DNA of 24,978 nucleotides from a virus. The stretch is taken from the IMG/VR virus record IMGVR_UViG_3300042691_008669, positions 1 to 24,978 of that record; one strand, written 5' to 3'. This document shows positions 2,605-24,978 of the stretch, in pieces; the first letter of the stretch is position 1; every line of letters begins with the position of its first letter. The position numbers were made by a program, and so were the translations under genes. The notes under the pieces were generated by a model. The model worked only from the letters and a program-made list of their open reading frames with translations. It was not told the origin of the DNA and made no database searches.

Positions 2605-2605
2605 A

Positions 2606-3059: not shown

Positions 3060-3062
3060 AAT

Positions 3063-3093: not shown

Positions 3094-3094
3094 T

Positions 3095-6000: not shown

Positions 6001-8428
6001 TTGGTACATTTTCAGATAATGAAAAGTTTTTAAGACCTCTATAACTTTCCATAAACCTACTAAACATAAGAACTACAGATATAAAATCTGCATTTTTAGC
6101 ATTTTTAGGATTTGAAACATATTTTATAAAACCTTCTAATTCTTTTTTAGATTCATTTAAAAATCTTCCAAAAGCTAAATCCGCTTTACCACTAGCTATT
6201 TCTACAGAAAGTAATGCATTTAAACTAGTAATTTTATCTATAGTTTCTTTTTTAGGTTTAACTTGTTTTGCAGATTCTATAACTGCAGTTAAAGCTTCAA
6301 CTTTAGTAGTAGTAAGTTTTATAACTTCTTTCATGAATGCAGCAATAGAACTATATTGATCTGCAGTTATTTGTTCTTCAGGTTGATCTTCTTCAGGAGT
6401 TGTAAAGTTTGGATTTCTAGTTGCATTATATCCATTCTTTATTCTAATTCTTTCTGTAATATTTTCAGCAGGTTCTGTTGGTACAATTTTATTTACATAC
6501 TCTAAATTTTCAGTAGGTAAATGTTGTATAGTACCCTCTACTTCAAAATCTTTAACTTCTTGATTTTCACCCTTACCTTCAATTTCTAAATTAATATGAT
6601 AAGTAGCAGTACCGGAAACAGGAAAACCATTTACTTCTGCTAGTTTAGCATATGTTTGTACTTGAATACTATGTTGTTGTCTTGTAGTAAAAGATTCTCC
6701 TGGAAAAACACTACCTTCATTTGTAGGATACTTTTTAGTAGAGTAATCCTCATCTTTAATACTATTTTTAGATGCTTTTAAATCTACTATATAAAGATCA
6801 CCATTAGGTTTAATAACTAAGATATCTAAACTACCCGCAACTTTAGATTTATTATCTGCAAAAATAACCTGTGGTAAAATAACAGAACCATCTTGAGTAA
6901 GAGCGTCTACATATATAGATAAACTTTCATAAGCTTTACGAGCTATCTCTTCATTAATAACAGTAACATTTTCAAAAGCTTTTTCAAAAGATTTATTTTC
7001 AATAAGATCTTGTAAAATACTATCAAAGTCTTTACCAAAAAGTCTATTTAATCTAAATAAATCTTTAGGATCATTTAAACCACCTTTAATTGCTTTAGTT
7101 GTAGACATGTACTCATCTCCATTTTGTAAATTAATATACGTATGAGTTTCTTCATCTAAGATTACAGGAGTATTATACATTATGTCTATAAGGTCTTGCT
7201 GTACTTTACTAGTAGCTCTACCTTTAGCATCAGATTTAGCTTTTTCTTTAGCTTTTAATCTTGAGTCATTTGGATCAATATTATAAGCAACTTTGTTAAA
7301 AGAATCAGCTTTAATATTAAAATCAAATATTACTTCTTTAGTATTCAAAAGTTTTGCAAGATCTGTAAGTGTAGTATTTTCAGATAAATTTTCAGGTTTA
7401 ATAATTAAATTTTCACCAGTTATTGCAGCATAAACTTCTTTTACAATTTCTGCAAACCATTCTAAAAATTCTTTAATAGTAGATTTAAAAGATTTGTTTG
7501 GTTCTTTTTCATATTCTTTACTAAAATGTCTAGATAAAGCTTGAGTAACTAATTCATTTTGTCTATCTGAATTATTAAAACCATATCTATCTGAATAAGT
7601 ATCCATTATTTGTTGAGCTAAAACAGGAAAGTTTTCTCTTGCCTCTTTAACTAACTTACCCATTATATCAGGTCTAGCTTTTGCTAAAGCATCTATAACC
7701 GGGTGTAACATTTCTTCAATAGTAGTTTCAGTAGTTGCTCTACCTTTTATAATAATAGCATAGCCTTTATAAAAGAAACTATTTACTTTATTAAAAGGAA
7801 TAAGTTTTCCTTTTGTATCTTTTGCTCTAGCAAAACTTGGAATTGTATTATACAATCTTTCTGCTTCTTCTTCTGTTTCAAGTCTTACAGTAATACCTGG
7901 AATTTTTGTAATAAGATGTTCTATTATAGGTATAATATTTGTTTTATCTTTAGTTGGAAGAATTAAATCTTGAGGTGTAAATATATTTTCATTTACAACA
8001 AAAGCTGTACTATTACCTTTGCGGTAAAAAGTTACTGCAGCAAGATTAATGTTATTTTGAGCTAAATAGTTAAGAATTTTATTCTCATTAGATTTTAAAA
8101 CTTTAGGATCAATTACAGCATCAGGACCTCTATTTTCTTTAGCTGTTCCTGTTACATAATAAACCATATTTCCTTTTGAGTCTTTTAATCCTGTAATTAG
8201 TTTTTTTCTAACTAAATTTTGAGTAATAGCCTCCTTAAATTTTCTAGACTTTAACGAATGAGCAGCTTTTGCTTTATCAGTAATTTCAATAGCTTCAGCT
8301 ACAGTAGGATACGCTTCAGACCCTTTGCTTTCCTGATATTTGTTAATAATACTATCTACTACAAAGTTACTTTTAAACTGTTTAAGTAACTCTTTATACT
8401 CTGGTAAGTTTCTATTATGACAAGCCAT
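3095..8428 (-). CDS. Giant phage protein with degenerate zincin-like module, PD-(D/E)XK nuclease domain and hydrophobic C-terminal region
   Basis: 1777 aa, ATG at 8428-8426, three nt after the stop of the 4623-aa gene. Residues 1-110 are helical and charged. Residues 225-340 resemble a metallopeptidase module but read E-E-M-L-H (238-242) instead of H-E-x-x-H, with E292 at the third-ligand position and a helix F-L-E-W-F-A-E-I-V-K after it; the zinc site is probably dead. Residues about 425-610 hold a RecB/Cas4-type PD-(D/E)XK core: D535, D549-L-K551 on the next strand, and Q589-V-Q-T-Y593, the helix signature of that group. A long coiled, charged middle (700-1360) follows, then hydrophobic stretches at 1372-1396 and 1639-1655, and G-Q-M-I-A-Q-F-H-K-W before the end. 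Size, position and C-terminal pattern match the large virion-associated proteins beside the polymerase in crAss-like phages. Nuclease activity is predicted; its target is unknown. Confidence 0.8.
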   Translation of the reverse strand: MACHNRNLPEYKELLKQFKSNFVVDSIINKYQESKGSEAYPTVAEAIEITDKAKAAHSLKSRKFKEAITQNLVRKKLITGLKDSKGNMVYYVTGTAKENRGPDAVIDPKVLKSNENKILNYLAQNNINLAAVTFYRKGNSTAFVVNENIFTPQDLILPTKDKTNIIPIIEHLITKIPGITVRLETEEEAERLYNTIPSFARAKDTKGKLIPFNKVNSFFYKGYAIIIKGRATTETTIEEMLHPVIDALAKARPDIMGKLVKEARENFPVLAQQIMDTYSDRYGFNNSDRQNELVTQALSRHFSKEYEKEPNKSFKSTIKEFLEWFAEIVKEVYAAITGENLIIKPENLSENTTLTDLAKLLNTKEVIFDFNIKADSFNKVAYNIDPNDSRLKAKEKAKSDAKGRATSKVQQDLIDIMYNTPVILDEETHTYINLQNGDEYMSTTKAIKGGLNDPKDLFRLNRLFGKDFDSILQDLIENKSFEKAFENVTVINEEIARKAYESLSIYVDALTQDGSVILPQVIFADNKSKVAGSLDILVIKPNGDLYIVDLKASKNSIKDEDYSTKKYPTNEGSVFPGESFTTRQQHSIQVQTYAKLAEVNGFPVSGTATYHINLEIEGKGENQEVKDFEVEGTIQHLPTENLEYVNKIVPTEPAENITERIRIKNGYNATRNPNFTTPEEDQPEEQITADQYSSIAAFMKEVIKLTTTKVEALTAVIESAKQVKPKKETIDKITSLNALLSVEIASGKADLAFGRFLNESKKELEGFIKYVSNPKNAKNADFISVVLMFSRFMESYRGLKNFSLSENVPNRGQRDLAIKVIDLLNIADDKIDSSIKNYVKEFVRTNSTKDWAEEELDTLLIETKDISTGDAFLGDLATSTDTLLALLDKLYKRQRQKIQDESEDFAIRAARLGDKLAQLSGGVEPDFSFMLVYDKDGNFTGNYVRKIGYQYYKKLYALRNELYDANGNWLEYIHIPNIDDAKAEDLKYNKDLYQKKKAYREFKSAEKFIDGKILDGDYHKYTDNFKQVRDRYEYYNGYRWKKKKGIGDEEYAIYRNKYYSYAEYTSPLFDKTGTYTGATKQESGWFVKPEFTEVREIASTGENMLDEKYIKIMNPTNELERAQKEFYEFWTNEYEGIQLASLPPSVKKDMTGKLPRIERNLGTKLKKEPSSAISLLGKAVGDYFKSFTNTGYQKVQLTDLEGNVIDAPPIFYTGKLKNQYIIDKINKDIEALEAEYATGNLSTTKYTEQRKELKKQLRANESRLASYELSTNLVDSLIKFNAMATNYKHLLNIEDSIFAIQRTIEDRQYYQSENKLVKTVTGGTKFQTIEGKESRTYTRLKKWMKMVYYDESQFDRTIIDNVVQKVLNNTSLAYVGFNIFGNINNYIIGRINNSIETGGELFYSKKSMLRATKDYNSEYLPGVFKGLSDSKGYYSEKKPQSKYEALMRRFRMVDSMALREIQKEESPLDWGYFLQDASENNVQSKVGMAILMSKELKNANGDTLSIYDAYDFNPNTGELSLKSGYELSDEERYDVRNVIREANKQIHGNYSREDRMVIQDSSLGQMIAQFHKWVYPAYKARFKARYYDENLGWIEGRYRTLVNFLAHVSKARGGVVEKIRDGKSELTEDQLKNLSRVMYELGFIMSSFILAQIIAMLAEGMDFDDDDKQLKRLINSLSFQADRQISELTQFVSPKAVYMLVKNPIASSKFLGEMGEAVQDAFLFPFTYAIDEESLYYQRGTRKGELKLAKQWADVIPGWYTINRWRSYDNVTDFYVK
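6580..7160 (-). other. PD-(D/E)XK nuclease-like domain within the 1777-aa protein
   Basis: This stretch encodes roughly residues 425-615. The core has strand A-G-S-L-D535-I-L-V-I-K, a turn N-G, strand L-Y-I-V-D549-L-K551-A-S, and after about 35 residues the helix Q-H-S-I-Q589-V-Q-T-Y593-A-K-L. The D / D-x-K / QxxxY order and spacing are typical of RecB/Cas4-like nucleases, in which the acidic residues bind the metal and the lysine helps catalysis. All key positions are filled, so activity is likely. Confidence 0.75.
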
Positions 8429-8431
8429 ATC

Positions 8432-11400
8432 TTATAAATAACACTGTTTAATTTGATCTATAAATTCTTTTTCACTTTGATTAGATTCACTTTGTGATAG
8501 CACAAATTGATCTGTCAAATCTACAAAAGATTTTATTTTATATTCTGATTTTAATTTATTTATTTGTTCATCTGTTAGTTCACTATAAAACTTTAGCAAC
8601 CCTGGAAATTCATTTTGTTTTTCTCTTAATAAACCTAAATCAATAGCAGGAATCTCAACAGGTCTATTAAGAGCTATAGAATTAATTAAATCATCTGAAG
8701 GACCTTGCTCTTCACTATATTCTTTATCAAGAAAATCTGTTTCAGTAGGTGTAGGTGCTAATTTTTCATATAGATCTCTAGGAGAAGTAGCACCCATAGC
8801 ATTATAAGGTTTACCATCTTTTAGGTAAGTAATTTTACCATTACTATAAGTAACATCTATTCCTAATTTACTTAACTCTAACATATAATCAATACCTGGT
8901 TGCTCACTATTTCTTTCTGCTGCCTTTAAGTCTCTTGGTTTAAATCCTATTTGATCTATTTGAGCAATAGCTGCATCAATTGCAGCAGTACTTACTGCAT
9001 TATCTGCAGTAGCATCAAGATTAAATCCTCCTTTATTTTTAGCAGCTTTTCTAAGAGCTTTTTTCTTTTCACTTAACTCTTTAGCTGTTGGTTGATTTCC
9101 GGGTATTACAAATCCTGCAGCAAATTGCTTGTAAGAACCTTGTAAATCTATTTTATCATATACAGCTTCAGTACCGTAAGCAAAACTATCACCTTCATTA
9201 ATTAATAAATTACCTTCAACAAACTTTCTATTTTTTCTTATTTTAGATAATTTATAATATACAGTGGTAAAAGAAGTATCCTCATTTCTAACTCTTCTTT
9301 TCATAACTAATGGAAAACCAATACCTTGAGGATTATCACCACCAGCTCGTGATGTGTCAAGACCAAATAAACGCAAGTAATCCATGTTAAATCTAAAGTT
9401 TAATTTACCTTCTTCTGTCATTCTATTTGTTCCTGGAATATCTTCTATTTCATCTACAGTAATGTACTTACCACTATTTGAATCAAATATTTCATATTGT
9501 CTACCAGTTACTACATAATCAGAAGTAAATTTAACATTTTTAAACATGCCTATTTCTAATTGACTTGTTTCTTTATTAGAACCAGCATCTTTTTTAAATT
9601 TAACTTCTATAGGTATACCTGTAGTTGAATTTTTTACTTCATTTAAACCTATATTTTTTCTTATTTGATTTACAACTTCTATATTTAAATTGTCATATTT
9701 TTTAATATAAAATGAATTAGAAGAAGCACTAGTATAACCTTTTATAAACTCATTAAACATTTCATTTAAAGAAGCTCCAAATGTTGATTTAATAAATACA
9801 TCATTTGGTTTTTCTTGCATTAAATACTTAACAGCATTACCGGCTTGCTTTAATATATTATCAAATATAAAGTTAGGCATTACTCTAATAAATGAATCAG
9901 ACTTAAACTGACCTCCATCTTTTACTAACAAGTAATGGAATAAATCAACAACATAAGGTCTAGTAATAGAATTATTATATAACTCCATTAAACTATACTG
10001 TAACTTATTAACTTGCAATTTATTAAGTTTAGCCCAAGTATTTGCAGTAACTTTATTTATATTATCCTTATTACTTAATTGTGCAGCATTGTGTGCAAAT
10101 ATAAAGTTATTGGCAAAATAATTTTTAGGAGCAACTTCTCTAATCTTATTAACCACGTCTACAACTGAGTCCATATTATCCGGTAATGTAGAAGCTGTTT
10201 CATCATAAATCATTCCGTTATTTAAAGAAGCTAAAGCTCTACCAGATTGATTATTTTTTAAGAAGTTGATATAAGCTTTAATTGCAAAATAAGAAACAAC
10301 GTTTTTATCAAATGAATTATTAAAAGTTTCTTTGTCTTTAAAGTTAATATTAAAGTTATCTTCAATTACACTCTTTAGTTTTTTAACTACAGGTGTTCTT
10401 TGTAACATAATTGTAGATGTTAGTGAAGAAATTTCTTGGTATACTTTAAAGTTAAATCCTACAGTTTGTTCCGAGTCATCTAAAACTTTTCTAACATCTA
10501 CAGGTATTTTACTATTCTCAAAGTTTTCATCATTTAAACCATATCCAAGATTTTCTGCTTTTTCCATTATTGCATCAAATTCTGATAAGTTGGTAGGTAA
10601 ACCTTTGTTAACCTTCATAATTGTTGCAATATTTAAGAAAGAATCAGCCTGGTTCATTAAAATTTTAAAATCATTTAAAATAGCATTATTTACTTGAGGA
10701 CTTGGTTTTCTCATATTGTCTTCAAGTATACCATCATTTAATCTACCACTTAATGATTCAGCTTTTGTTTCTACAAGTAAAGCAGCAATAATTTTATCTT
10801 TACTTTGTTTATATTCTGTAAAAGAATAAGAAGAGTTTTCTTTAGCTAATTGTTTATAAAATTCTCTTATAATAGGTTGGTTAATGAATAACAAAGAATC
10901 TCTTAATGTTACACCTTGAGCAATCATGTTTGCTACAATACCTAAAGAATTTATATTAAGATTTAATTTAGCAGCAAGACGTTCTTTAGCGTTATCTGTC
11001 ATTGCAGATATTAAAGTAGAAATAGAATCTAATATACGCTCACCAGTATATTTACCAGTAGATTTATTATATGCTCTTGTTTGACCATAACTACTAAACT
11101 CATTATCATTAAATCTAAATCTAAAAGTTTCTTGTCTTTCTTCAGTGTTAATATTTTTTCTTATATTAATATTATTCTGATTAAGTAAAGTATATACAAG
11201 TAAAGAGTTTACAGCAGGTCCAATATTTCTAGCACCTTCTTTATTATTTTTAAATGCATAATATTTACCTAATAACGTATCTACATTATATCTACCTTCT
11301 TCAAGCTGATCTTTTAATTGCTCACCAAATAATGTTTTAAATTCTTGTACTACATCTTCTAATGCTTTAGTACTAGCTACTTGAAAAGCTTTAGGTGCGG

Positions 11401-14400
11401 TTTCACCTTCTTTTACAGTAGTCATGTTTTCATTACCAAATAACGCCATACGTGCATCTACAATAGTATTATTAAGTGCACCATTGTAAGGCTCATATCC
11501 AAGTTGTTTTACCTTACTAGCATATTCTTCACTAGTAGATGGTAAACCTACAAATTGTAAAGCAGATTTTGTTATTTCTTTTTTATCAATAAAGTATTCT
11601 ATCTTTTCATAATCTAAATCAAAGTAATCTAAAGAATCTTCAAAATCAGAATCTAAATCTAATAAATTAAGATCTTCTTCAAACTGTTCTTTTCTTTCAG
11701 TTTCAGCTTTTAAGAAATCATGATAAGCTTTTCTAAAATCTTTATTTTTAGAAAACTGATATTTTACAAATTGATCAAACTTATTAGTATCTGTTTTACC
11801 TGTACCATATTCTACAAACTCTACTTTACCATTTTTCTTTTGAGTATAAAACTCTTTGATAGCAATGTAAAGTTTATCAATATCAAAGTCAGCTCCTGAT
11901 ATCTCAATAAGTTCTGGTGCAAATACTGCAGATGAACCGTAGTACACAGGCATAAAGTCTACAAGTTTAAGATTAACTGCAGAATGTTTATCCTGTGAAG
12001 GAATACGAACACCAAACATTTTAGCAATAGCATCTGGAATTTTATCACCCGGTTTAATATTATCATACACCTCTTTAAAGTGTGCTGGCATAATAAACTC
12101 TGTAAAGTATCCAGTTATTTTACCATTTTCATCATACTCCGGAACGTTGTGTCTTAAATCATCCACATAATAATCACCAACTTCTAGATTATTAAACAAA
12201 CGATTTACATTATCTGAATATTTTTTAGGTGTTCCATACTGTTCAGGATTTAATAAAAACTCATCATCTCTTACAATTTCCCAACGTTTAGGTTGACCTT
12301 CTTCATTTAACTCTAATACTTTCTTAAGCTTTTTATTTCCATAACTAGATACAAGAGCAACAGAATGTCCGGGAATCTTTTCAGATAATACACCTTTAGA
12401 GAAATATGCTAAGAATAACTGAGCAAATTTATCCATAGTAAGAGGATTATTTAAGTTATACTTAGGCATACCATCCTCACCTACTTCAAAAAACTCAATC
12501 ATTTGTGCATCGGCAGCAGATTCTTTTAATCTCTCAACTGCATATTTTTGGAATACTTCTAACTTAGGTGTAACTTTATTACGGTCAATAGATTTTTTAA
12601 CTTCATCAATTGCATCTTCTAAAGTAAATATTTCATTTCTTTTAAATAAATAGTTAGAACTAACACGTGCAATAGAAGTTTTTTGATATACTTCTTTTAA
12701 TTCTTTTACAGTTATTTCTTTACCCATAAAATCTACAATAGTTTCATCATCTTGTTCAGCCATTAAGATTTGTTTAATCTGGGTAGGATCTGTAATTTTA
12801 ATTTTATTAGAAGGATTTTCTTGTTGTAATCTTAAGAAATTAGGATCAAACTCTATAAAGTTTTTATCAGATATTTCAGATACACTGCTTGCTACATTAG
12901 TCTTTAACATTTTAGATGCAGATGCAGGTACAGCAATACCAACGGTCTCTCTACCTTCTACATTTTCATAAGCTTCTAATTTTTCACGTAGCTCATGTAG
13001 TTCTTCTCTACCTGGTAAAGCTTTAGAAAAGCCTTCTCCATAAGATGTTAACTGTTTAGTAAGTACAATAGCTGATGTTTTTAAATATTTTTTTCCATCA
13101 AAGTATACTAGCTTAATAGAATTAGTAGTTGCATCAAAAGATACAAGTCCCTTTTTGTCTTTTTCTCCAAAAAACTCAGTTCCTGTAAGTTTTTCTCCTT
13201 TTTCAATTTTATCTAATAATTTAGCTTGAGTAGGAGAAAGTTTACCTAACCCAAAAAGTATATAGCGTAAAGCTTTTGTAGTTAACCATGTTTGACCATC
13301 AGCAACTTCAACTTTACCTTTTTTATATTTACCATATATAGTAGGGTCATTAAAGGTAACAACATGCATTTTATTAAACTTATGTTTTATACCTAATGAA
13401 CTATCAATAATTTCTGTAGCAGCAGATTGACCACTAGCATTATCACCTTTAGCACGTTTAACTTCGTCAACTCCATCTTTAAATGATAATGCGTGATCAC
13501 CATGCATTAATTGATTTATAGTTGTAGTATTAATAAAGTCATTTATATATATCTGTGCTAAATTAAATTGAGGATTATTTTTAGCAATATTGTACTGAGA
13601 ATTTTTAGTTTTATCATCTACAGTTTTTTTACCAACTTGTTTAGTAAAACCTTTATTAATAAAACTAGATATAGCAGTTCTAGAAATTTCTTTATCATCA
13701 TTAAGCTGAATGATATTTTCATCTTGAAGTATTTGATATAGTTCATTTACTTCTTTTAATAAAGATCTTTCTAAAGCAGATTTTATTTGACTTTCTTGTT
13801 TAGATGTAAGAGGTTTTTGATCTTTAGCTTGTTGTTCTAATTCTTGTTTAAAAGAAGGATCTAAAAATACACCTGTTTTAAATAATTGCAAACCTCTAAT
13901 ATTACCTTTACTATCAGGAACATTATAACCAAGATGTTCTTCACTTAATGGTTCACCAGAAATAATCTCTTGCTGTATTTTTGATATTCTATTATACTCT
14001 TGTTTTACAAAATCTAATAAAATGTTTTTAGCTTCTTCAGTAAGATTATATCCGCCATCTTCACTTACAATTTTAACAGCTTTAATTAAAGGCATGCCTT
14101 CTATAATATTACCTGTACTAGAAGCTTCAAGAACACGTATAAGATGTGTAGATGTAGCAAATGATTCATCACCTATTACTTCTATATTACCTTTTTGATA
14201 TAAGTCTATAAGTGTAGTAATAAACTCAGCTGGTGAGTAACTACCAAATGTAACACCATCACGTTTATTTTTTTCTAACTGTTTATTTTCAATTAAACCG
14301 TTTTCAGTTCTATTAAGTGTAGATACTTTTTGACCATCTATTCTTCCAATAGTAAGATTTTTTAATACTTGTCTAAACCTATCAGTTTTAATAATAGGGT

Positions 14401-17400
14401 TATCTTGTAAGAAAGCATCTTGTTCAACTTCATTATCAAGACCATTTTCTTTCTGAAGACGTATTAATTTTACAGCATGATAAGAAGGAAGCTGGTGAGC
14501 ATAAACAGTTTTACCTTCAGCATTAGTCCACACTGCAGGCATAACACTCTCATCAAATATACTATTTGCAGTAGCTATTTTTTCTAAACGTGTAGTTACA
14601 CCACCTCTAAATACTTCTACTTCAACAACTTGTCCTGATGCATCAGTTTGTTCTTCAACTATTGTATTTATAAATGGGTCTTCATTATCATTTATAAGTT
14701 TATATAATTGATTTAAAGACTCAATACTAATAGGTTCAATATTACTGTAAGCACCAAATAAAGTATCTTGATTTTTAGTTCTATTAGATATATTAGCTGC
14801 TATTGAATAAGATAAATAAAGAGGACTTATAGCAATACCTAAAACATCAGCTAATTGAGAAGCTAGACGGCTAGATATTTCTTTAAGTTGATCATCTGTA
14901 TATTGTTTAGATGCAGACATTGCAGAACTAATACTAGCAATAGCATTCAAGGCCTTTTGTTTTAAAGCAGGATTATTTTCTACTTTATTACTATAAAGAT
15001 CAGTAAATGCACTAGACCATAGTTCCATTTGAACTTTACCAGGACTTTTTCTATTTGCATCAAGAATGTCTACTTCACCTTTAAATATATCTTTATTTAA
15101 GAATGTATATCTGTATGAGTATTGACCAAAACCTTTAATAAAAGATTGGAATAAATAACTATTTGTAACATTATCTAAAATAGGTTGACCATCTTCATCA
15201 AAAGAAACATTAGTTTCTTCAAAGAATTTACTAATTACTTTACCTGCTTCAGGACTCTGATCTTTAAAGACATTAAGTCTTATCACCATATCTACAGTAC
15301 TTTCAGTATTAGAAACAGCTTTAAGAATACCTGCATAAACTCTGCTTGCATCTACCGCTTCTATATAAGGAGTACCATCTAAGAAATATTTATTTCCAAA
15401 TTGATCTTCTGAATGATAAGAAACAGTAGCAATCCAAGAACGTAGGTATTTAGATAAAGAACTAAACCCACCTATATTTTCAGAACCATCTGTATAATTT
15501 TGTTTACCTCTATCTCCTAGTTCATCTGCTATTTCTTCTTCTGTATCTTGTTCAGCTACATATTTTTTAGATATAAAAGACAAATGATCATATACTGCTT
15601 CTTTAAGAATCTCTCTATTTTCAGTTTTACTAAATACTGTTTTATAATCTTTTACTTTTTTAAATTCTTTTTGACTTAAATCAGCATATTCATCTCTATC
15701 TGTATCATACAGATCTTCATACTTATTAAGAATTTCTTCAAGTAAGTCATCTTCTGATTTACCAATAGGAGCTTTTTCCAATGCACTTACAAACTGATTA
15801 GCAATAGCTGCAGTTAATCTAGTACCTTCTTGTTCTGGTAAATACTTTGGTACTTTAATAGCTTTTACTTCACCTTCAGGTGTAAAAATAGTATCCTGAA
15901 TTAACTCATCACCAATCTTAATTGCTTTGAGTACAGGAACACTTACATCTGACGGATTGTTTTCATCTGTAAATCTATTACTTACAACTTTAGTATTTCT
16001 AAATTTACCGGCATCAATAGATTCAAATAATGTTTGTAATTCATTTTTACTAAATACTCCAAGAATCTTTTTAATAAAATCAATAATTTTTGCAAATAAA
16101 CTTTTATTTACAAAACTAGTTTCAGTCTTTTTATTTGTTTTCCAAGCATCAAATTTATCAGCAAGATATTCTTCATAGAATCTTTCTTCTAAATCTAATT
16201 GAGACATCCGCATGTACATAGGATGTAACTCTCTCATTTCTTGTAGAGCTTGACTTAATGTTTTACCTTCTTTACGTAGTTGATCTCTTACTTCTTTTTT
16301 AGCAATAGAAAGATATTTATCTATTTGAGTATCAGAAAGTAATAATCTAAACACAGCGTGAAAAGCTTCATGGTATTTAAAAGGTGTATCAGCACCTACA
16401 TATATAGTACCATTTACTTCTACTTTACCTGCAATATTTGAGAGACCTTGAACAAAGGCACCAACAGTTTTACCTTCTTTAATAATATTGTTAGCTAAAG
16501 TATTAAGATCATCTACAGTAATAAAATCAGGTAAATTATTTTTTACCCATGTAACAAAATCATTAATGTTTGCAATATCTGAAGGGGTATATCCAGCATC
16601 TACTATTTTAAATGGTAGTTTTCTTTCAAGATTTCTTAATTGTTCTTTAAGTGCTTTTACACTAGGTGCATTTTCAGCATCTATTCTTATTTGTTTCTTT
16701 TGTGCTGCTGAAACATTTGTACCAGCTTTAGAAATCAAATCCTTTCTTATTTTTTCTATTTCATCATCTATTTGATTTTCTAAATTTTTTATCTGATCAA
16801 TTATATTATCAAAATAGTCTTCTGATTCAGTATCATCTTTAGCTTTCTTTTCAGCCATAGCTTCTTCTGCTTCTTTTTGACGGTTAAGAACTTTACTTAA
16901 AGGATCTTCTGTTGTCTCAGAAACTTCTGGTTTAGGATTACTTGGTGCAGTACCTCTTAACAAATCAGGCGTAATAGCATTATTTCCTTGAGGTGCAGAT
17001 GACATATCTATATTACCTGGAACAACAGGTCCATCCGTTGGATCAACAGGCAAGTTTAATGGATCAACTTCAACATCTGAAGGTTGATCTTCCATTGTTA
17101 TAGTTAAAGAAACAGACTTTACTATATTAGGTCCCACATTAGAAGACAATTGTAAAAAGTCTTGTACACTAGCTGTTTTAGAAATTGACTGTTTAAAATT
17201 ATCTTTAGTTAAAATTATATTAATTTTATTTGCATTACTAACCTTTGGATTTTCATCATGTTTTTTTATTGCATTGTTTAATGTAGCCAACAAATCATTA
17301 AATGTAGAAATCTCAGGATTTTCAATATAAACAGTTCTTTTTAAAGGTTGTCCTTTAATAGTTTTTGTTTTATCTAAAAAGTCCAATTGAATACCACCTT

Positions 17401-20400
17401 TTGGAGTAAGTGTAAAACTTATAAATTGTCCTCTTTTAGATACTGGTAAAGCTATAAACAGTTTATCATTAATGTTATTTTTATTCCATACATCATTGAA
17501 TTCCATTGCTTTAGCCTCATTATTTTCATTAATATTTTCAGCTTTACTTTTTGCAATTCTTTCAACAAGTTTTTCAACAAATTCATTCTGCTCTATTTCA
17601 GTAAGAACGTTACTAGTAAGTTCTACAAATCTTAATTTACCATTTGGAAGTCTTACTACTGCAACATATCTACCAGCATTTAATAAAGGATCTTTAATTC
17701 CTTCACCAAATCTTAAATCATTTATTTCTTTATTTAAAGCTTCTAGTTTATCTACAGGTAAATCAGTAATAGGAAGAGCTTCAACATCAGTCATTATTCC
17801 ATTACTGTATTTCTTTTCTCTGTTTATAATATAAACACCACCATCAACAGTATAAAAATTTAGATCTGATAATTTAATACTTTCATCAGCTTTATCTGTC
17901 CAATCATATTCACCATTTAATAAATTTACTTTTGCATTTTTAGAAAGTTCATTAAATGATACTTCAATACTTTCTTTATTACCTAATTTATTTTTTAAGT
18001 AATTAAATAAAGCAAGCTTATTACGATAAGATGCTTTATATTGATCTAGCATTCTTACGTAACTTCCAGTAGTATAAAAAGCTTGTTTAAATTTATCTAC
18101 TGATACATTATTAATATTTATAGGATTACCTTGACTATCTAAGAAAGCAGAACTTGTTGGATTAGGTAAATATCCAATTGTTTCACCATTTAGTAATACT
18201 TCAATTGCAAATGGATCTTTAAAGAACCCAAAGTTTTGATTTACTTTTTGATCATCAAGTTGTAAATAACTATATCTTTCTAGTTGACTATCAGTTTTTG
18301 AAAATCTAATTGTTAATCCTTTAACTAAATCAACTAAAGAAGTATTAATCAATAACTGACTTAATCTTTCGTTAGCATCTTGTTGTGTTTCATTAGGTAG
18401 TCTAGCACCCCACATTTTATTAATAGGGTTTAGAGTTCTTAATTTAGAAGTAAAATTAGATTTATCAAATGTAGATCTAGAACCTTTTGCAAAACCGGAT
18501 AAAGATTTTAAAGCTAATACAGATCCTGTTTTAATATTTTTAATGTTAAGTGTAGTAGGATCTTTTTCAATATCTTCTGGTTTAGTCAGAACAATATATT
18601 CATTATTACCATCATTTAAAATATCACCATATTTTAAACTTACACCTTCAAATGTAAAATCTTGTTTAGATCTTTCTAAGTAATCTCCAATAATTTTTTG
18701 TACTTCAATAGCAGTATTTAAATTATCAAAATACGGGCCCATTGAAACTTTAATATTATCTTCTTGATTATCTCCAACATCTACATTTTCAATAAGAACA
18801 TTATTATTATCTACTATAGTATAAATAGGTGTTCCATCTTCTGTCATAATAGATACAACAAATACACCTTTATAACCTTGTGATTCTAATTTTTCATCTT
18901 CACCTAAAGAACTTGTATTAAAACTAGTAGGATCAGTTGTTCTTTTAAAAATATCATTAAATGCTAAATTATATTTTAATAATATATTTTGAACTTTATC
19001 AGTTGATTTATTATCTACTAACCATTCTTCAAATTCAGGTTTATCAGTTGTAATATCATTATAAGTTTTTTCAAGTTCACCAATAGCTTTAACTATATCT
19101 TGAATTTTTTTTCTTTGGAAAAATTCTTCTTTAGTTTGAATAGTTTCTACTTCAGGAACAGTTGCTACATATTCTTCATAAAGTCTGTTTATTACAGACA
19201 TTGTAAAAGTACTTACATCTTCTACTGTTTCACCTTCTTCAACATCCGTAAAATCATTCGGATCTTTTCCTGGTTGTTTTGTATCAGCAGGTTTTGTTTG
19301 TGATTGTTTTTCAGCAGCATCTTTTGCTTCCTTAATAGCAAACAACTGAGCAATAGGTCCAAAAATTGGATCCTGTGGAGTTACAGGACCTAATACTGAT
19401 TCATGATAAAATGTTTTAGGTATTGTTCCTTTTTTAAGATAAGCTAAAGCTTCTTCAGGCTCTACTAAAACACCCATTTCTTTTAAAGAAGCTAAAACAT
19501 CATTCTTCTCTAGCAGATCCATATGATCAGCAAGAGTTTTATTTAAATCTTCTTTTACTTTATTAAACGCATCAGTAGTAACTTTAGTAAGTCTATCTGC
19601 TAATTGTTTAAAGTAATTAGGGTCCATTAATATATTAATAGATTGTTCAAGTATTTGTTGACGAGTATCTAATACTTTATAATCAAAAAGTTTACTGAAT
19701 ACTTCTTGAACTGCAGGATCAGAAATAATTTCTTTTGGGCTCTTGGTATTTTTAACTAAATCAAGATAATCTCTAAATGCATTATAAATCTTATTTACTT
19801 TACGCATATCATATGTGCCATCTTTTTTAAGATTAGCCTCATATACTGATTTATAATTTCTAAGTAAAGCTTCTTTTTTCTTTTTAAATTCTAATTCTTT
19901 TTTTAACTGAGGATCAATAACCTCACCCATGTTTTTAATTTCTTCTGCTAATAAATCAACTTCAGCATCTAATGTTCTTGGATCAAACATAATGTTAAAG
20001 TCAGAAGCAGCCATACCTTGAAATAATGGAGTATTTATAGCAGATTCTAAAAGATCTGCTTTTCTTTCTACAGCTCTATTTTGAGCATACATTTGATATA
20101 ACAAATGTGATTTAGCAGCTTCCCAAGATCTATATTGTTGAAGCTCATTTATAAATGCTGCACTATTAGGTTTGTATAGTTCAGGTCTAAAAGGATTACC
20201 TCCAAATCTTTCTTCTATTTCTTGACTAGCATTCTTTAAAGAATCTATACGGTTTAATGTTTCTTGAATTTTTTTACTTTTTTCTTCAGCTGAAAAACCA
20301 TAAGCTTGTTTAAATTCTTCATCTGATAAAGATGAAAGTTTTTCTACGTGATCTTTAAGAGTATCAAGCTCTCCAGTTTCAGCAAGAGCCTGTAATTCTT

Positions 20401-22303
20401 TTGATTTTTGTAAATCATTATTAACTAATGTAAATAAAGCTTCATCTTTAGCATCTTGAAATTCTAATTGCTCACCCTTAGCTGCTGCTTCTTCCATTTT
20501 TTTCTGGAGAGCTTTTTGAGTAACTAAATTTTCATCTGTTAAACTAAATACTTTAAAAGGATTTGCTAATGCATCATTTAATTTCTTTTGAGTATCAACT
20601 ATAATTTTTTCTTTTTCTGCTTTATATTTTACGTATCCTTCTTTATTTGTAAGATACTTTCCAGCAGCAGGAAGAGTTTTATACATAAAGTTACCAAAAG
20701 GTCCTGCAACACCTCCCATTAAGAAACCTGATAAAAAGGTTTCCATACCTTGACTAGAAAAAACTTGTCTATTAATTGATTCTTTTAAAGATGTAGACAT
20801 GTAGTTTTTATGTACAAGACTTGGATCTTTAAATGAATTTATATAGAAATTTTTATATGTATCAGATATTGTTTCTTGTGCTAGTTCTTGTAAACCTTCT
20901 GTTAAGTTAGTCATAGAATAACGAGCCCCTGTACCTAATACACTTTTTAGTGCAGCTTTAGGATCGGTAAAAGGTAAAGTAACTACATCAGTTAATTTTT
21001 TACGTACATATTGAGGTACCCCTTTTACAGTTGTTTTTCTTAATGAGTCACCTACAATACCACTATTTTCTTTTAATACTTTTTGTAATGGTTTATAACC
21101 ATTAAGTATATTATCAAAAGCTAATTTATTACTAAAAAATATTAATGGTAAGTTTATCATTTCAGTTTCAAATCCAGCTTTCTGAGCTTGATCTAAAATA
21201 GCTTCATGATCTTGTCCTTCAGGTAAAGTAAAATTATTATTTTCTTTGTATTCATTAATAAGGTCTTTATAAACCTCATCTCTTACCATACCACCTTCTA
21301 ATTTAGATTCACCTAAAGCGGCATTAATATTTCTTATGTCTCTATAAAAAGAACCAAAATATTTAGTTGCTTTTGCAACATTATCTAATCTATATACTGC
21401 ATTTTTACCAGTATTAAGTTGTTTAATAGATCTATAAGCATCTACAGTATTTTCAAAAGGATTTAAAAACTTACCAGCTGAATCCCAAAATCTACGAGCA
21501 TCACCTGCTTTATCTAAACCATTTACAAAATTTCTAGTTGATTGAAACATTTCTCCTATACGAGAAAGTTTACCTAAGTTTTGACCAGTTCTAATAGCAG
21601 CGGCACCAGCACCAGCACCACCAGTACCTACTGTAAGTGCTCCTAATGCTAATTCTTCTATTGCTATTTCAGATAAAATACCTACAGTATAACCAGAGTT
21701 TAAAATTAAATTATTTGCAAATCCTAAAACACCACCTTTTGTAGTCATTCCAATTTCTGCAGCTTTAGAATAATCACCTGCAGATTCATCAAATAATTTA
21801 GCCGGATTTCCAGATATTATATCACCTAATGATTCAAAAGAAGAAGTAAAACCAGTTGTAAACAATTTACCAAACTGACCAAACATTCTACTATACTCAT
21901 CTCCCCATGTAGCATTTTGATTATATAAAGACTCGTTATCTCTAAATGGAGAAAAACCTAAATCTTTAAACTTAGGATGATTATAATATCTATCATAGTT
22001 TGTTTGATTTTTATTATAATCAACAGGATTAGAATAACCAGATATCTCTGGATTAGGTTGTGCACCAGTTCTAATAGCATTTTCAAATACTCTCTGGGCG
22101 GTATCTTGATCTTTTATTGTTTTATTAACAGCATTACCAGAATAATATTTAACATCATCTATTCCAAAAGTTGTTAAATCACTTGGTATTATTGTATTAA
22201 TAACTTCACCAGCATACCCAAAATCTGGTACATCCATTGCATTTACTTGTGGAATATTAGATGGCATTGCATCTCTTCCAAGAAAATCTAAATTCTCTTC
22301 CAT
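8432..22303 (-). CDS. Giant crAss-like virion RNA polymerase polyprotein with zincin metallopeptidase-like module
   Basis: 4623 aa, uninterrupted from ATG at 22303 to TAA at 8434-8432. Residues 1-180 are polar. Hydrophobic, Gly/Ala-rich segments at about 190-240 and 521-548, with E-G-L-Q-E-L-A-Q-E between them, recall crAss-like ejected proteins. Charged coiled-coil stretches (550-990), a Pro-rich linker near 1000, mixed domains, a second Pro-rich linker (1740-1800) and a coiled coil lead to a zincin motif H1978-E-A-F-H1982 with E2044/E2045 in E-E-Y-L-A-D-K-F. RNA polymerase marks follow: V-A-D3002-G-Q-T-W, S-A-S-K3131 (candidate beta-barrel lysine), R3433-I-P-S-Q-D-K-H-S and G-A-D3472-F-D3474-I-D3476, the metal-binding loop equivalent to cellular NADFDGD. 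T-D-N-A-K-E near 3770 may belong to a bridge-helix-like part. In crAss-like phages such polymerases are packaged and transcribe early genes. It lies 2 nt after the previous gene. Most of the N-terminal half has no assignable function. Confidence 0.85.
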   Translation of the reverse strand: MEENLDFLGRDAMPSNIPQVNAMDVPDFGYAGEVINTIIPSDLTTFGIDDVKYYSGNAVNKTIKDQDTAQRVFENAIRTGAQPNPEISGYSNPVDYNKNQTNYDRYYNHPKFKDLGFSPFRDNESLYNQNATWGDEYSRMFGQFGKLFTTGFTSSFESLGDIISGNPAKLFDESAGDYSKAAEIGMTTKGGVLGFANNLILNSGYTVGILSEIAIEELALGALTVGTGGAGAGAAAIRTGQNLGKLSRIGEMFQSTRNFVNGLDKAGDARRFWDSAGKFLNPFENTVDAYRSIKQLNTGKNAVYRLDNVAKATKYFGSFYRDIRNINAALGESKLEGGMVRDEVYKDLINEYKENNNFTLPEGQDHEAILDQAQKAGFETEMINLPLIFFSNKLAFDNILNGYKPLQKVLKENSGIVGDSLRKTTVKGVPQYVRKKLTDVVTLPFTDPKAALKSVLGTGARYSMTNLTEGLQELAQETISDTYKNFYINSFKDPSLVHKNYMSTSLKESINRQVFSSQGMETFLSGFLMGGVAGPFGNFMYKTLPAAGKYLTNKEGYVKYKAEKEKIIVDTQKKLNDALANPFKVFSLTDENLVTQKALQKKMEEAAAKGEQLEFQDAKDEALFTLVNNDLQKSKELQALAETGELDTLKDHVEKLSSLSDEEFKQAYGFSAEEKSKKIQETLNRIDSLKNASQEIEERFGGNPFRPELYKPNSAAFINELQQYRSWEAAKSHLLYQMYAQNRAVERKADLLESAINTPLFQGMAASDFNIMFDPRTLDAEVDLLAEEIKNMGEVIDPQLKKELEFKKKKEALLRNYKSVYEANLKKDGTYDMRKVNKIYNAFRDYLDLVKNTKSPKEIISDPAVQEVFSKLFDYKVLDTRQQILEQSINILMDPNYFKQLADRLTKVTTDAFNKVKEDLNKTLADHMDLLEKNDVLASLKEMGVLVEPEEALAYLKKGTIPKTFYHESVLGPVTPQDPIFGPIAQLFAIKEAKDAAEKQSQTKPADTKQPGKDPNDFTDVEEGETVEDVSTFTMSVINRLYEEYVATVPEVETIQTKEEFFQRKKIQDIVKAIGELEKTYNDITTDKPEFEEWLVDNKSTDKVQNILLKYNLAFNDIFKRTTDPTSFNTSSLGEDEKLESQGYKGVFVVSIMTEDGTPIYTIVDNNNVLIENVDVGDNQEDNIKVSMGPYFDNLNTAIEVQKIIGDYLERSKQDFTFEGVSLKYGDILNDGNNEYIVLTKPEDIEKDPTTLNIKNIKTGSVLALKSLSGFAKGSRSTFDKSNFTSKLRTLNPINKMWGARLPNETQQDANERLSQLLINTSLVDLVKGLTIRFSKTDSQLERYSYLQLDDQKVNQNFGFFKDPFAIEVLLNGETIGYLPNPTSSAFLDSQGNPININNVSVDKFKQAFYTTGSYVRMLDQYKASYRNKLALFNYLKNKLGNKESIEVSFNELSKNAKVNLLNGEYDWTDKADESIKLSDLNFYTVDGGVYIINREKKYSNGIMTDVEALPITDLPVDKLEALNKEINDLRFGEGIKDPLLNAGRYVAVVRLPNGKLRFVELTSNVLTEIEQNEFVEKLVERIAKSKAENINENNEAKAMEFNDVWNKNNINDKLFIALPVSKRGQFISFTLTPKGGIQLDFLDKTKTIKGQPLKRTVYIENPEISTFNDLLATLNNAIKKHDENPKVSNANKINIILTKDNFKQSISKTASVQDFLQLSSNVGPNIVKSVSLTITMEDQPSDVEVDPLNLPVDPTDGPVVPGNIDMSSAPQGNNAITPDLLRGTAPSNPKPEVSETTEDPLSKVLNRQKEAEEAMAEKKAKDDTESEDYFDNIIDQIKNLENQIDDEIEKIRKDLISKAGTNVSAAQKKQIRIDAENAPSVKALKEQLRNLERKLPFKIVDAGYTPSDIANINDFVTWVKNNLPDFITVDDLNTLANNIIKEGKTVGAFVQGLSNIAGKVEVNGTIYVGADTPFKYHEAFHAVFRLLLSDTQIDKYLSIAKKEVRDQLRKEGKTLSQALQEMRELHPMYMRMSQLDLEERFYEEYLADKFDAWKTNKKTETSFVNKSLFAKIIDFIKKILGVFSKNELQTLFESIDAGKFRNTKVVSNRFTDENNPSDVSVPVLKAIKIGDELIQDTIFTPEGEVKAIKVPKYLPEQEGTRLTAAIANQFVSALEKAPIGKSEDDLLEEILNKYEDLYDTDRDEYADLSQKEFKKVKDYKTVFSKTENREILKEAVYDHLSFISKKYVAEQDTEEEIADELGDRGKQNYTDGSENIGGFSSLSKYLRSWIATVSYHSEDQFGNKYFLDGTPYIEAVDASRVYAGILKAVSNTESTVDMVIRLNVFKDQSPEAGKVISKFFEETNVSFDEDGQPILDNVTNSYLFQSFIKGFGQYSYRYTFLNKDIFKGEVDILDANRKSPGKVQMELWSSAFTDLYSNKVENNPALKQKALNAIASISSAMSASKQYTDDQLKEISSRLASQLADVLGIAISPLYLSYSIAANISNRTKNQDTLFGAYSNIEPISIESLNQLYKLINDNEDPFINTIVEEQTDASGQVVEVEVFRGGVTTRLEKIATANSIFDESVMPAVWTNAEGKTVYAHQLPSYHAVKLIRLQKENGLDNEVEQDAFLQDNPIIKTDRFRQVLKNLTIGRIDGQKVSTLNRTENGLIENKQLEKNKRDGVTFGSYSPAEFITTLIDLYQKGNIEVIGDESFATSTHLIRVLEASSTGNIIEGMPLIKAVKIVSEDGGYNLTEEAKNILLDFVKQEYNRISKIQQEIISGEPLSEEHLGYNVPDSKGNIRGLQLFKTGVFLDPSFKQELEQQAKDQKPLTSKQESQIKSALERSLLKEVNELYQILQDENIIQLNDDKEISRTAISSFINKGFTKQVGKKTVDDKTKNSQYNIAKNNPQFNLAQIYINDFINTTTINQLMHGDHALSFKDGVDEVKRAKGDNASGQSAATEIIDSSLGIKHKFNKMHVVTFNDPTIYGKYKKGKVEVADGQTWLTTKALRYILFGLGKLSPTQAKLLDKIEKGEKLTGTEFFGEKDKKGLVSFDATTNSIKLVYFDGKKYLKTSAIVLTKQLTSYGEGFSKALPGREELHELREKLEAYENVEGRETVGIAVPASASKMLKTNVASSVSEISDKNFIEFDPNFLRLQQENPSNKIKITDPTQIKQILMAEQDDETIVDFMGKEITVKELKEVYQKTSIARVSSNYLFKRNEIFTLEDAIDEVKKSIDRNKVTPKLEVFQKYAVERLKESAADAQMIEFFEVGEDGMPKYNLNNPLTMDKFAQLFLAYFSKGVLSEKIPGHSVALVSSYGNKKLKKVLELNEEGQPKRWEIVRDDEFLLNPEQYGTPKKYSDNVNRLFNNLEVGDYYVDDLRHNVPEYDENGKITGYFTEFIMPAHFKEVYDNIKPGDKIPDAIAKMFGVRIPSQDKHSAVNLKLVDFMPVYYGSSAVFAPELIEISGADFDIDKLYIAIKEFYTQKKNGKVEFVEYGTGKTDTNKFDQFVKYQFSKNKDFRKAYHDFLKAETERKEQFEEDLNLLDLDSDFEDSLDYFDLDYEKIEYFIDKKEITKSALQFVGLPSTSEEYASKVKQLGYEPYNGALNNTIVDARMALFGNENMTTVKEGETAPKAFQVASTKALEDVVQEFKTLFGEQLKDQLEEGRYNVDTLLGKYYAFKNNKEGARNIGPAVNSLLVYTLLNQNNINIRKNINTEERQETFRFRFNDNEFSSYGQTRAYNKSTGKYTGERILDSISTLISAMTDNAKERLAAKLNLNINSLGIVANMIAQGVTLRDSLLFINQPIIREFYKQLAKENSSYSFTEYKQSKDKIIAALLVETKAESLSGRLNDGILEDNMRKPSPQVNNAILNDFKILMNQADSFLNIATIMKVNKGLPTNLSEFDAIMEKAENLGYGLNDENFENSKIPVDVRKVLDDSEQTVGFNFKVYQEISSLTSTIMLQRTPVVKKLKSVIEDNFNINFKDKETFNNSFDKNVVSYFAIKAYINFLKNNQSGRALASLNNGMIYDETASTLPDNMDSVVDVVNKIREVAPKNYFANNFIFAHNAAQLSNKDNINKVTANTWAKLNKLQVNKLQYSLMELYNNSITRPYVVDLFHYLLVKDGGQFKSDSFIRVMPNFIFDNILKQAGNAVKYLMQEKPNDVFIKSTFGASLNEMFNEFIKGYTSASSNSFYIKKYDNLNIEVVNQIRKNIGLNEVKNSTTGIPIEVKFKKDAGSNKETSQLEIGMFKNVKFTSDYVVTGRQYEIFDSNSGKYITVDEIEDIPGTNRMTEEGKLNFRFNMDYLRLFGLDTSRAGGDNPQGIGFPLVMKRRVRNEDTSFTTVYYKLSKIRKNRKFVEGNLLINEGDSFAYGTEAVYDKIDLQGSYKQFAAGFVIPGNQPTAKELSEKKKALRKAAKNKGGFNLDATADNAVSTAAIDAAIAQIDQIGFKPRDLKAAERNSEQPGIDYMLELSKLGIDVTYSNGKITYLKDGKPYNAMGATSPRDLYEKLAPTPTETDFLDKEYSEEQGPSDDLINSIALNRPVEIPAIDLGLLREKQNEFPGLLKFYSELTDEQINKLKSEYKIKSFVDLTDQFVLSQSESNQSEKEFIDQIKQCYL
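11200..13460 (-). other. Single-chain RNA polymerase catalytic core (candidate beta-like plus beta'-like barrels) within the giant protein
   Basis: Approximate span of residues 2950-3700; edges are estimates. D-F-D-I-D (bases 11876-11890) aligns with the universal A-D-F-D-G-D loop of beta', three aspartates retained for Mg2+. It lies 40 residues after R-I-P-S-Q-D-K-H-S, which matches the conserved R-x-P element preceding that loop in cellular and YonO-like enzymes. About 340 residues upstream, S-A-S-K3131 is a candidate for the conserved lysine of the beta-type barrel, preceded by the V-A-D-G-Q-T-W motif. The beta-before-beta' order in one chain fits the crAss-like polymerase family. The beta-side assignment is much weaker than the beta' side. 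Confidence 0.75.
15900..16460 (-). other. Zincin metallopeptidase-like module within the giant protein
   Basis: Residues about 1950-2130. A beta hairpin (V-E-V-N-G-T-I-Y-V-G) precedes the helix H1978-E-A-F-H1982-A-V, the standard zinc-binding and catalytic pattern. Some 60 residues on, L-E-E-R-F-Y-E-E-Y-L-A-D-K-F supplies an acidic third ligand. A helical tail (F-A-K-I-I-D-F-I-K-K-I-L-G-V-F) ends the module. All catalytic residues are present. The same layout, without the first histidine, occurs in the 1777-aa neighbour. Confidence 0.7.
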
Positions 22304-22305
22304 AA

Positions 22306-24978
22306 TTATTTTAAAGCATTAGGGTCTTTAACACCATTTACCGCTAAATTAGCCTTTTTTTGTCTTAAATTTTGTGTTGAATAATTATTAAATGTATTTA
22401 TAAGGTTATTATATATTGTAGTATAACCACCTTCTCCAACTAATTCTTGAGGAATACTAACATCAACTCTTTTAAAGTTTCCTGATTTTGGATCATAAAT
22501 TTCATATGCACCACTTATTGAAACTACATTATTTTGTAATTCAGTCATTGTTGCATAACCACCATTAGGAACATTAAAAGTGTAACTTCCAGTTTCACTC
22601 ATATTAATTCTTGCTTTAATTGGATCAATTGTTTGACTTGCAGCTTGCAAAGGATTTCTATCTAGATTCTTTGGTACTTGAACAGATATTCTTCCTCCAG
22701 AATTTTGAATTTCTTTATAAAGAGCTTCATCTGTATCTTTAATTTTAGTAATTGCATCTTGAGAAAGATTGATTTGATAAGATGCATAATTTGGATCTCC
22801 AGCTACAGCTCTTTGATATTGAACAGAAGTAACATATCTTGATTCTCCTTTACTTGCTGTTACAGCATCTAGTAAAGTATTGTCTAGTACATTTCGTAAT
22901 TTTAAACCTTTTTCTGTTGCCGCTCCTTCTCCTTTTTCAGATGCATCTCCTAAACGTAATAATACTTCGTTAGGATTTCTTTTAAATGAATTTATAAGAG
23001 ATTGCATTTGTGTAGTTGCAACTACATTGTTTACAGTTGGATCATATACAACTTCAACAGCTCCGACATTCATTTGACCAGTTCCTAAGTTAACTTGACC
23101 TGAAGCATATAAATCATTATACACGCTATAAACAGAATTTTTATCATAAAATTTATTTACACCACTTAAAATTTTATCATATTCTTTACCAGCTATATCT
23201 CTATATTTATTAAAATCAACACTTCTTAATATATCTTCTTTTCTTTCATTTCTACCAAGCGGGGCTGCTGTTCTAAAAGGAGGTCTATATCCTGTACCAA
23301 AAGTATTCAATCTTTCAAATCTTCCTTGATAATTACCAGAAGAAATATAATCAGTAAGTTTATTTATATATGATTCAACATATTCTTCTTTAGTTACTGG
23401 TTTTTTAGTATTCTTGTTTCTAATATTTTCAATATTAAAAAATTGATCCTTACCTTCTTTAAATGAATTTGATGATATAAAACTATTAATACCATTTTCA
23501 AAACTTTCTATAAATTTAGATTCTGCTGTATTAATTACTGAAGAAGTTTCACTAATGCTTCTATAAAGATTAACAAGACTTGCATCATTTTTACCTTTAC
23601 CATCTTTTACATATACTGAATAATCATCAAATAACTTAGCAATTTTAGAAGCATTTGCAGGATTTAATGAAAGTTCTGCAAGTTTAGCAGCACTAATAGG
23701 TTTACCATCAAATGAAATTGGAGTGCCTTGAACACCAGAAACTCTAGAAATAAAATCAGCCATTTGCTGAACGTTTCTACCTTTTGCTTGTGTTAAAATA
23801 TTTTTATTTACTTCTACTGCATCACCTAAATCAATATCACCACCAGGTGTAGTAGGTATAGTTAATAAATTCCCAGGAACTATTTTAGCATCATCTTCAA
23901 GTTTCTTTTTAAACTCTGCAACTTTCATATCATTTAATGCTCTATGATCGTCAAGTGCATAAGGATTAGCTGTTACATCCGTACTAGTTTTAATATAGGC
24001 AGCAGTATTGGCTACATTACTAAATGTATTCATCATATCAATATTACGTTTTAAAGCTCTTGCTTTTAAAACATAATCTGATATACCATTTAATTCTTGT
24101 TCTTTACTATCTACAGTTTGTACTGCAGCTTTTAAAACATCTCTTTCTTTTAAAGATTCAAGATAATTTTTATGTTCATCTGAACCAGGAATAATACCTT
24201 CACTTTTAATAAGATCCTCATTAGCCCCAACACGTATATTAGATTTGTTATAATCTTCTCTTACACGTGTTACTAACTCATTATACTGCTTAGGAGCAGT
24301 TGCTAATATTTGATCCGCATATGCTTTTTGTGCTAACTCTTTAGAACCAAGCATTGGAGCTTGTTGAGTAACATAATCATTATATTGAACATATTCTAAG
24401 GTTTTATAATAATCATTAACTTTTGGATCATTTGCCATTAATAATGAAACATATTTCATCATGGGTAAAATAGCATTTTTACCATTTGTATGTGTAACTA
24501 ACCACTGACCTGATAAATTAGGAGGCGTTTTAATTTCAAACCCAGCTTCTTTAATGTAATCAAAAGCCATTTTGTTTACATCTACAAAAGGAGTATAGGT
24601 TGCTTTACCAGCACGTAATGCTTTTTCATCATCAGTTTCAGCAAATTCTTGTTTTTGATAAAGAAGAGCTTTAACACCTGTATCCCAATATGTAGCTTTT
24701 ATTTTTTCATCTGAAGAATCTTTTAAACTTTGTGCTTTTTGTAATTCATTACTCCACTGTTTAGTCCAAGTCATATCTTTTACAATATTGTTATCCTCAT
24801 AAAAAGGTTTAAAAACATTGCTAGCCAATTGTACATTTTGAGGAAGAGATAAATCAAGAGATGATATCTTTTTAATATTATCTTCTGCAGCTTTTAAAAA
24901 TTCTGCTTTTCTTTGTTGATTAACAGGTCTAGTCAAATCTGAATTAAGAATTGAACTATACACATCATTTACCTGACT
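22306..24978 (-). CDS. Large internal/ejected virion-type protein (partial, 5' end beyond right edge)
   Basis: The frame is open to the window edge, giving 890 residues and TAA at 22308-22306. A GTG at 24963-24961 could serve as a start, but codons S-Q-V-N-D continue upstream without a stop, so the true start is probably outside. The protein is Asn/Gln/Lys-rich, mainly helical in its first 450 residues, and has no catalytic motif I recognise. Residues near the edge include D-L-S-L-P-Q-N-V followed by F-K-P-F-Y-E-D, and about 115 further on Y-T-P-F-V-D-V-N-K-M-A. I recall these elements in large proteins encoded just before the polymerase genes of crAss-like phages. The C-terminal third (about 600-850) is richer in beta strands. 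It is followed after 2 nt by the 4623-aa gene, so both are co-transcribed. A cargo or ejection role is inferred. Confidence 0.7.
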   Translation of the reverse strand, partial: SQVNDVYSSILNSDLTRPVNQQRKAEFLKAAEDNIKKISSLDLSLPQNVQLASNVFKPFYEDNNIVKDMTWTKQWSNELQKAQSLKDSSDEKIKATYWDTGVKALLYQKQEFAETDDEKALRAGKATYTPFVDVNKMAFDYIKEAGFEIKTPPNLSGQWLVTHTNGKNAILPMMKYVSLLMANDPKVNDYYKTLEYVQYNDYVTQQAPMLGSKELAQKAYADQILATAPKQYNELVTRVREDYNKSNIRVGANEDLIKSEGIIPGSDEHKNYLESLKERDVLKAAVQTVDSKEQELNGISDYVLKARALKRNIDMMNTFSNVANTAAYIKTSTDVTANPYALDDHRALNDMKVAEFKKKLEDDAKIVPGNLLTIPTTPGGDIDLGDAVEVNKNILTQAKGRNVQQMADFISRVSGVQGTPISFDGKPISAAKLAELSLNPANASKIAKLFDDYSVYVKDGKGKNDASLVNLYRSISETSSVINTAESKFIESFENGINSFISSNSFKEGKDQFFNIENIRNKNTKKPVTKEEYVESYINKLTDYISSGNYQGRFERLNTFGTGYRPPFRTAAPLGRNERKEDILRSVDFNKYRDIAGKEYDKILSGVNKFYDKNSVYSVYNDLYASGQVNLGTGQMNVGAVEVVYDPTVNNVVATTQMQSLINSFKRNPNEVLLRLGDASEKGEGAATEKGLKLRNVLDNTLLDAVTASKGESRYVTSVQYQRAVAGDPNYASYQINLSQDAITKIKDTDEALYKEIQNSGGRISVQVPKNLDRNPLQAASQTIDPIKARINMSETGSYTFNVPNGGYATMTELQNNVVSISGAYEIYDPKSGNFKRVDVSIPQELVGEGGYTTIYNNLINTFNNYSTQNLRQKKANLAVNGVKDPNALK

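Follow-up and report, generated by a model that had tools for sequence, protein, structure and literature searches.

A giant gene of an environmental crAss-like phage predicted to encode gp47-type cargo, a zincin and a virion RNA polymerase in one chain

A single minus-strand frame of 13.9 kb lies within the window analysed here, which is an entire IMG/VR record of 24,978 bases and a linear fragment. Such a frame raises the questions of whether it is one genuine gene and what its product would do. A first-pass annotation, made from the sequence alone, had read it as one chain joining an ejection-like region, a metallopeptidase and an RNA polymerase (RNAP) core. The features assigned to the protein, P0001, are as follows.

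8432..22303 (-): giant protein P0001, 4,623 aa, predicted gp47-type cargo region, zincin and virion RNA polymerase
19424..22126 (-): residues ~60-960, gp47-type N-terminal cargo region, from hmmsearch slices
20885-20899 (-): residues 469-473, EGLQE, an EGx[QE]E motif
17048..18916 (-): residues ~1130-1752, beta-rich region, confidently predicted, no homologue by sequence or PDB fold
16820..17047 (-): residues 1753-1828, predicted disordered linker, pLDDT below 50
16004..16606 (-): residues ~1900-2100, zincin-type metallopeptidase domain, from hmmsearch and motifs
16358-16372 (-): residues 1978-1982, HEAFH
16169-16174 (-): residues 2044-2045, EE
9704..15856 (-): residues ~2150-4200, predicted virion RNA polymerase, homologue of the phi14:2 RNAP (6VR4) and crAss001 gp50
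13079..13114 (-): lysines K3064 and K3075 of the first-barrel region (NSIKLVYFDGKKYLKTS), invariant in 49 relatives, region aligned with 6VR4
11876..11890 (-): residues 3472-3476, catalytic DFDID, a DxDxD metal-binding motif aligned with 6VR4 and crAss001 gp50
8435..9703 (-): residues ~4201-4623, variable C-terminal tail, low conservation, no match

The frame runs from ATG to stop (22303..8432) over 4,623 codons with zero internal stops, a stop-free run that base composition would give by chance at about 10^-192, and HEAFH begins at residue 1978 and DFDID at 3472, just as the annotation had described. Relatives were collected from IMG/VR with a six-sequence alignment around DFDID as the query, which matched at least 522 contigs, 80 of which were kept. 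That two genes were falsely joined into the long frame by assembly or sequencing, the danger named in the annotation, has next to no probability left because HEAFH and G[SA]DFD[IV]D lie within one frame in 69 of the 80 kept loci and the gene is likewise unbroken in seven published Suoliviridae genomes; split versions do occur in a few relatives (L057, L061 and L065), yet L066, which is related to L065, is intact. The other 11 loci are mostly cut by contig ends or carry a variant motif, and the gene that usually follows the giant gene in these relatives encodes 1,500-1,970 aa. A collinear alignment was obtained for 50 non-redundant proteins, from the window, 48 loci and cr4_1; identities to the window are 48-54% for the nearest three, 27-34% for most others and 17% for cr4_1.

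As a single sequence, P0001 had no significant match in Pfam, PHROGs or PDB, and the best match of the window in the searched phage record collection was 35% over about 130 aa, no record being close. Direct scans of viral contigs for P0001 and its upstream neighbour P0003 gave no match with the peptide patterns used, which were non-conserved ones. A 49-row profile of residues 2850-3870, by contrast with the single sequence, matched PDB 6VR4, the virion RNAP of phi14:2, at E 8.8e-18 in two stretches that cover both barrel regions (hmmsearch). The AlphaFold (AF2) model of the same residues has a mean pLDDT of 84.4 and a pTM of 0.82, and Foldseek places it nearest to 6VR4 (E 3.1e-27), followed by the RNAi polymerase QDE-1 (E 4e-4). 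Slices of residues about 2190-4200 match phi14:2, crAss001 gp50, cr111_1 and cr4_1, and the SGADFDIDK context is aligned with crAss001, phi14:2, jaberico, cr11_1 and cr4_1. The phi14:2 enzyme contains two double-psi barrels in one chain (PMC7886860), and we infer from the match, rather than from strand-by-strand tracing, that P0001 would adopt the same two-barrel fold. Since profile, AlphaFold and Foldseek all support a 6VR4-type RNAP, the double-psi barrel fold that the annotation had expected at residues 2950-3500 is supported, and its proposal of a crAss-like phage with a homologue of the virion RNAP holds. As a prediction from sequence and model, the polymerase identity of residues ~2150-4200 is firm.

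The N-terminal part resembles a different virion protein. When residues ~60-960 are searched in slices, they match the N-terminal ends of gp47-type proteins, including those of crAss001, jaberico and bajarodcaudo (hmmsearch; baj_struct 3e-10, crAss001 gp47 1.5e-6, jab_Zn 1.4e-6), and an EGx[QE]E-type motif occurs at a similar position, 371-671, in most of these proteins. The annotation had called this end of the protein ejection-like and had noted Gly-rich hydrophobic segments. Gly-rich segments are present, but no strong membrane helix was found in P0001, the top 21-residue hydropathy being 1.36 (residues 206-226), under the usual membrane-helix threshold; homology to gp47-type virion cargo is thus the sole basis on which the label can be kept.

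The region following the cargo part, residues ~1130-1750, is modelled by AF2 as beta-rich, with a pLDDT of mostly 80-95. Foldseek found no match for it in the PDB at E<0.001, and profile-profile comparison found no homology to the Suoliviridae counterpart. The best two matches in BFVD, at E 2e-3 and 3e-3, are to crAss-like proteins, and we treat them as a lead only; our guess from these two matches is that the region is an old crAss cargo domain and not a clade-specific one. The stretch of possibly undescribed domains that the annotation had placed at 550-1950 therefore narrows to about 1130-1750, as residues 550-960 still match gp47-type proteins. By eye, the residues at ~1360-1380 (IEVLLNGETIGYLPNP) had suggested a HIRAN-like domain; this was rejected, as Pfam HIRAN gives no match, and the PDB matches of a profile of residues 1000-2150 (PEX14, ATP synthase b and others) were weak, mostly coiled-coil-like, and were taken as chance.

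Between this region and the polymerase lies the putative metallopeptidase, and here too the annotation was right. In hmmsearch, residues 1900-2100 hit the C-terminal zincin of crAss001 gp47 (residues 2155-2296; E 3e-15) and also, among the seven Suoliviridae proteins, six. The succession of HEA[FWY]H and EExxA[ED]xF is kept in 9/9 sequences compared; in the 49 relatives HEAFH and EEYLAD are invariant or nearly so and lie on two predicted helices. The small beta sheet ahead of these helices is poorly predicted, with low confidence and no PDB match. Directly after the zincin comes the gp47/gp50 junction, and on sequence grounds P0001 is gp47 plus gp50 in one chain.

The annotation had supposed that neighbouring functions were united in this protein, and comparison with known systems agrees, as phi14:2 and crAss001 encode them in separate genes. 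The phi14:2 RNAP (6VR4, 2180 aa) shares the two-barrel core and DFDID with P0001, and the gene order of cargo, RNAP and gp49-like protein is that of the window, but the genes are separate, and HExxH is found in the gp49-like gene and not in the gene before the RNAP. All three modules of the window are present in crAss001 (gp47, gp50 and gp49), including HEAFH near the gp47 C-terminus; there, however, each has its own gene, and gp47 lies on the strand opposite gp49 and gp50. Intestiviridae and Crevaviridae also have RNAP chains of more than 4000 aa (cr11_1 4388 aa, jaberico 4098 aa, cr127_1 4133 aa) adjoined by a zincin cargo gene (in cr11_1, 'RNAP associated protein fused to zincin protease'), but theirs is another fusion, of RNAP with the gp49-like protein, while the zincin protein stays separate. 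According to a review, crAss-like RNAP genes reach ~6000 aa (PMC10136315).

The annotation went too far in ascribing the fusion to 'this phage', because seven Suoliviridae genomes share the one-gene arrangement. In all seven of the published genomes of this family (delta crAss-like phages) that were read for motifs, HEA[FWY]H is followed by G[SA]DFD[IV]D in one gene of 4,460-5,794 aa (cr4_1 4491, cr1_1 4551, cr118_1 4946, cr10_1 4460, cr52_1 4464, cr53_1 4645 and cr273_1 5794 aa). Like P0001, these proteins (e.g., cr4_1 KNV51_gp26, YP_010112556; cr1_1 QOR58537) combine a gp47-type N-terminus, a HEA[FWY]H zincin and a two-barrel RNAP, and a large gene comes next, which in cr4_1 is gp49-like and annotated as an exonuclease. 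They differ in an overall identity of only ~17% (cr4_1), a separate RNAP clade, a middle region unrelated by sequence, and the use in some of TAG as an amino acid, which is not seen in the window; four of the seven giant genes open only when TAG is so read. An eighth member, cr131_1, with a 4,372-aa gene at the corresponding position, stands outside the seven-genome motif count. The one-chain architecture is already normal in Suoliviridae and in the clade of the window, and P0001 adds a further case of a known type. This arrangement is the rule in two far-apart crAss-like groups and no gut oddity; published Suoliviridae records mostly label the protein 'hypothetical protein' or give it a misleading name. 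The misleading names include 'DNA helicase' and 'nuclear pore complex protein-like', given to giant RNAP genes in L115 (7979-22819) and L117 (7073-20467).

In the RNAP tree, the window belongs to a 100/100 group of 25 environmental sequences that sits on a long branch, and Suoliviridae form their own 100/100 group apart from it; membership of the window in this ICTV family was rejected on that ground. A constraint placing the two fused groups in one clade is mildly rejected (p-AU 0.011, to be read with caution given the long branches). It follows from the two separate groups and this test that either the one-chain state had two origins or it is ancestral and was later split. We give slightly less than an even chance to an ancestral single chain split in Steigviridae, Intestiviridae and Crevaviridae, as against separate fusions in Suoliviridae and the environmental clade. 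The module order and the junction are identical in both fused groups, and an ancestral state does not require that these form one clade, yet the tree lacks a fixed root, its branches are long, and two fusions fit it equally well.

The window itself contains no crAss-type capsid or tail genes. Among its relatives, 5/13 have a crAss-type capsid match (E about 1e-6), with weak tail and cargo matches in upstream genes. The environmental clade (L012-L091; at least 522 IMG/VR contigs matched) is large and has no close match in the searched phage record collection; it is apparently undescribed and possibly represents a new family or higher rank. Large contigs from the cultured bacteria Spirosoma oryzae and S. 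terrae (L123 and L127) also contain related crAss-like RNAP genes (29-31% identity). Their frames, of 3,359 and 3,594 aa, lack the HEAFH motif; their presence hints that Bacteroidota may carry crAss-like prophages.

We contend that P0001, for which homology, collinearity, motif conservation and a predicted fold are documented, is very probably the transcription protein that a crAss-like phage packages in its virion, with gp47-type cargo and a gp50/phi14:2-type two-barrel RNAP as one translation product. Virion presence and early-gene transcription are known for crAss001 and phi14:2 only; in crAss001, mass spectrometry detected gp47, gp49 and gp50 in virions, and its cargo has been proposed to unfold partially at ejection (PMC10172136). 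By analogy with these phages, and as a homologue of the crAss001 cargo, P0001 should be packed in the head near the portal and ejected through the tail ahead of the DNA, at least partly unfolded, whereupon its polymerase half would transcribe early phage genes independently of the host RNAP. Against this stand the low identity to characterised proteins (at best the 35% stretch mentioned above), the regions 1130-1750 and 4200-4623 that match nothing, and the poorly predicted zincin sheet.

Two kinds of role may be proposed for the zincin in such a protein. It could well be, at a little under even probability, that it does not process the chain but acts as an injected effector on host proteins or as a structural or packaging domain, the polymerase working in the intact chain. 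The virion RNAP of phage N4 (Schitoviridae), an ejected giant RNAP with a HExxH domain (PMC12633501), is packaged uncut, even though packaging requires its zincin region (PMC5512222), and the second zincin of the window, in P0002, is degenerate (EEMLH). However, the relatives of P0001 retain the residues for zinc binding and catalysis, and because of this an active enzyme is suggested to be needed.

Less probable, in our judgement, is that the zincin cuts P0001 after assembly or injection and so frees the polymerase from the cargo half. The domain sits just ahead of the point where crAss001 and phi14:2 begin a new gene, so that it may cut near residues ~2100-2160; both of its motifs are conserved in all fused homologues compared, a disordered linker lies ahead of it, and a processing role has been proposed for the zincins of polyvalent proteins (PMC5512222). 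On the other hand, no cleavage site or product was seen, the crAss001 zincin resides in an already separate protein, and the uncut N4 enzyme is again a counterexample. The fuller version, in which P0001 is a delivery polyprotein packaged and injected whole and then cut at the cargo/polymerase junction, with residues 1130-1750 as a new fold serving delivery, is doubtful; if it were true, proteolysis in Suoliviridae and the environmental clade would replace the separate genes of other crAss-like phages. The N4 polymerase is an unrelated single-subunit (T7-type) enzyme, similar to P0001 in its working and not in kinship, and since a zincin is joined to an unrelated injected polymerase in N4-type phages, what the zincin contributes to polymerase delivery becomes a clear and testable question.

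The genes around P0001 follow the order P0003 (cut by the contig end), P0001 and P0002 on the minus strand, with 2-3 bases between them, and then small genes.

22306..24978 (-): P0003, conserved upstream gene, 890 aa, about 41 N-terminal residues missing at the contig end
3095..8428 (-): P0002, 1,777 aa, with a degenerate zincin, a PD-(D/E)XK nuclease and a gp49-like C-terminus
7703-7717 (-): P0002 residues 238-242, degenerate zincin EEMLH
~6593-6961 (-): PD-(D/E)XK nuclease of P0002 (GSLDILVIKPNGDLYIVDLKAS), whose L050 homologue passes the Pfam PDDEXK_1 cut-off
3137-4627 (-): gp49-like C-terminus of P0002

Homologues of P0003 (817-1138 aa) were found at the same position in seven relatives, in most of which the similarity is confined to the first ~100-400 residues; the phage collection gave no match to it. 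By BLAST, P0002 matches the exonuclease gene of cr4_1 and crAss001 gp49, and large multidomain transcription proteins encoded as a block, some of them bearing PD-(D/E)XK domains, have been described (PMC7886860). The EEMLH of P0002 corresponds to HEILH in cr4_1, HEIMH in phi14:2 and HELVH in cr1_1; several relatives likewise have EExLH, and HEYLH is kept in L017 and L019. A lysis cassette (Phage_holin_4_1 and an Amidase_2 endolysin) lies at 859-2311 (-), with a thioredoxin-like gene directly before it.
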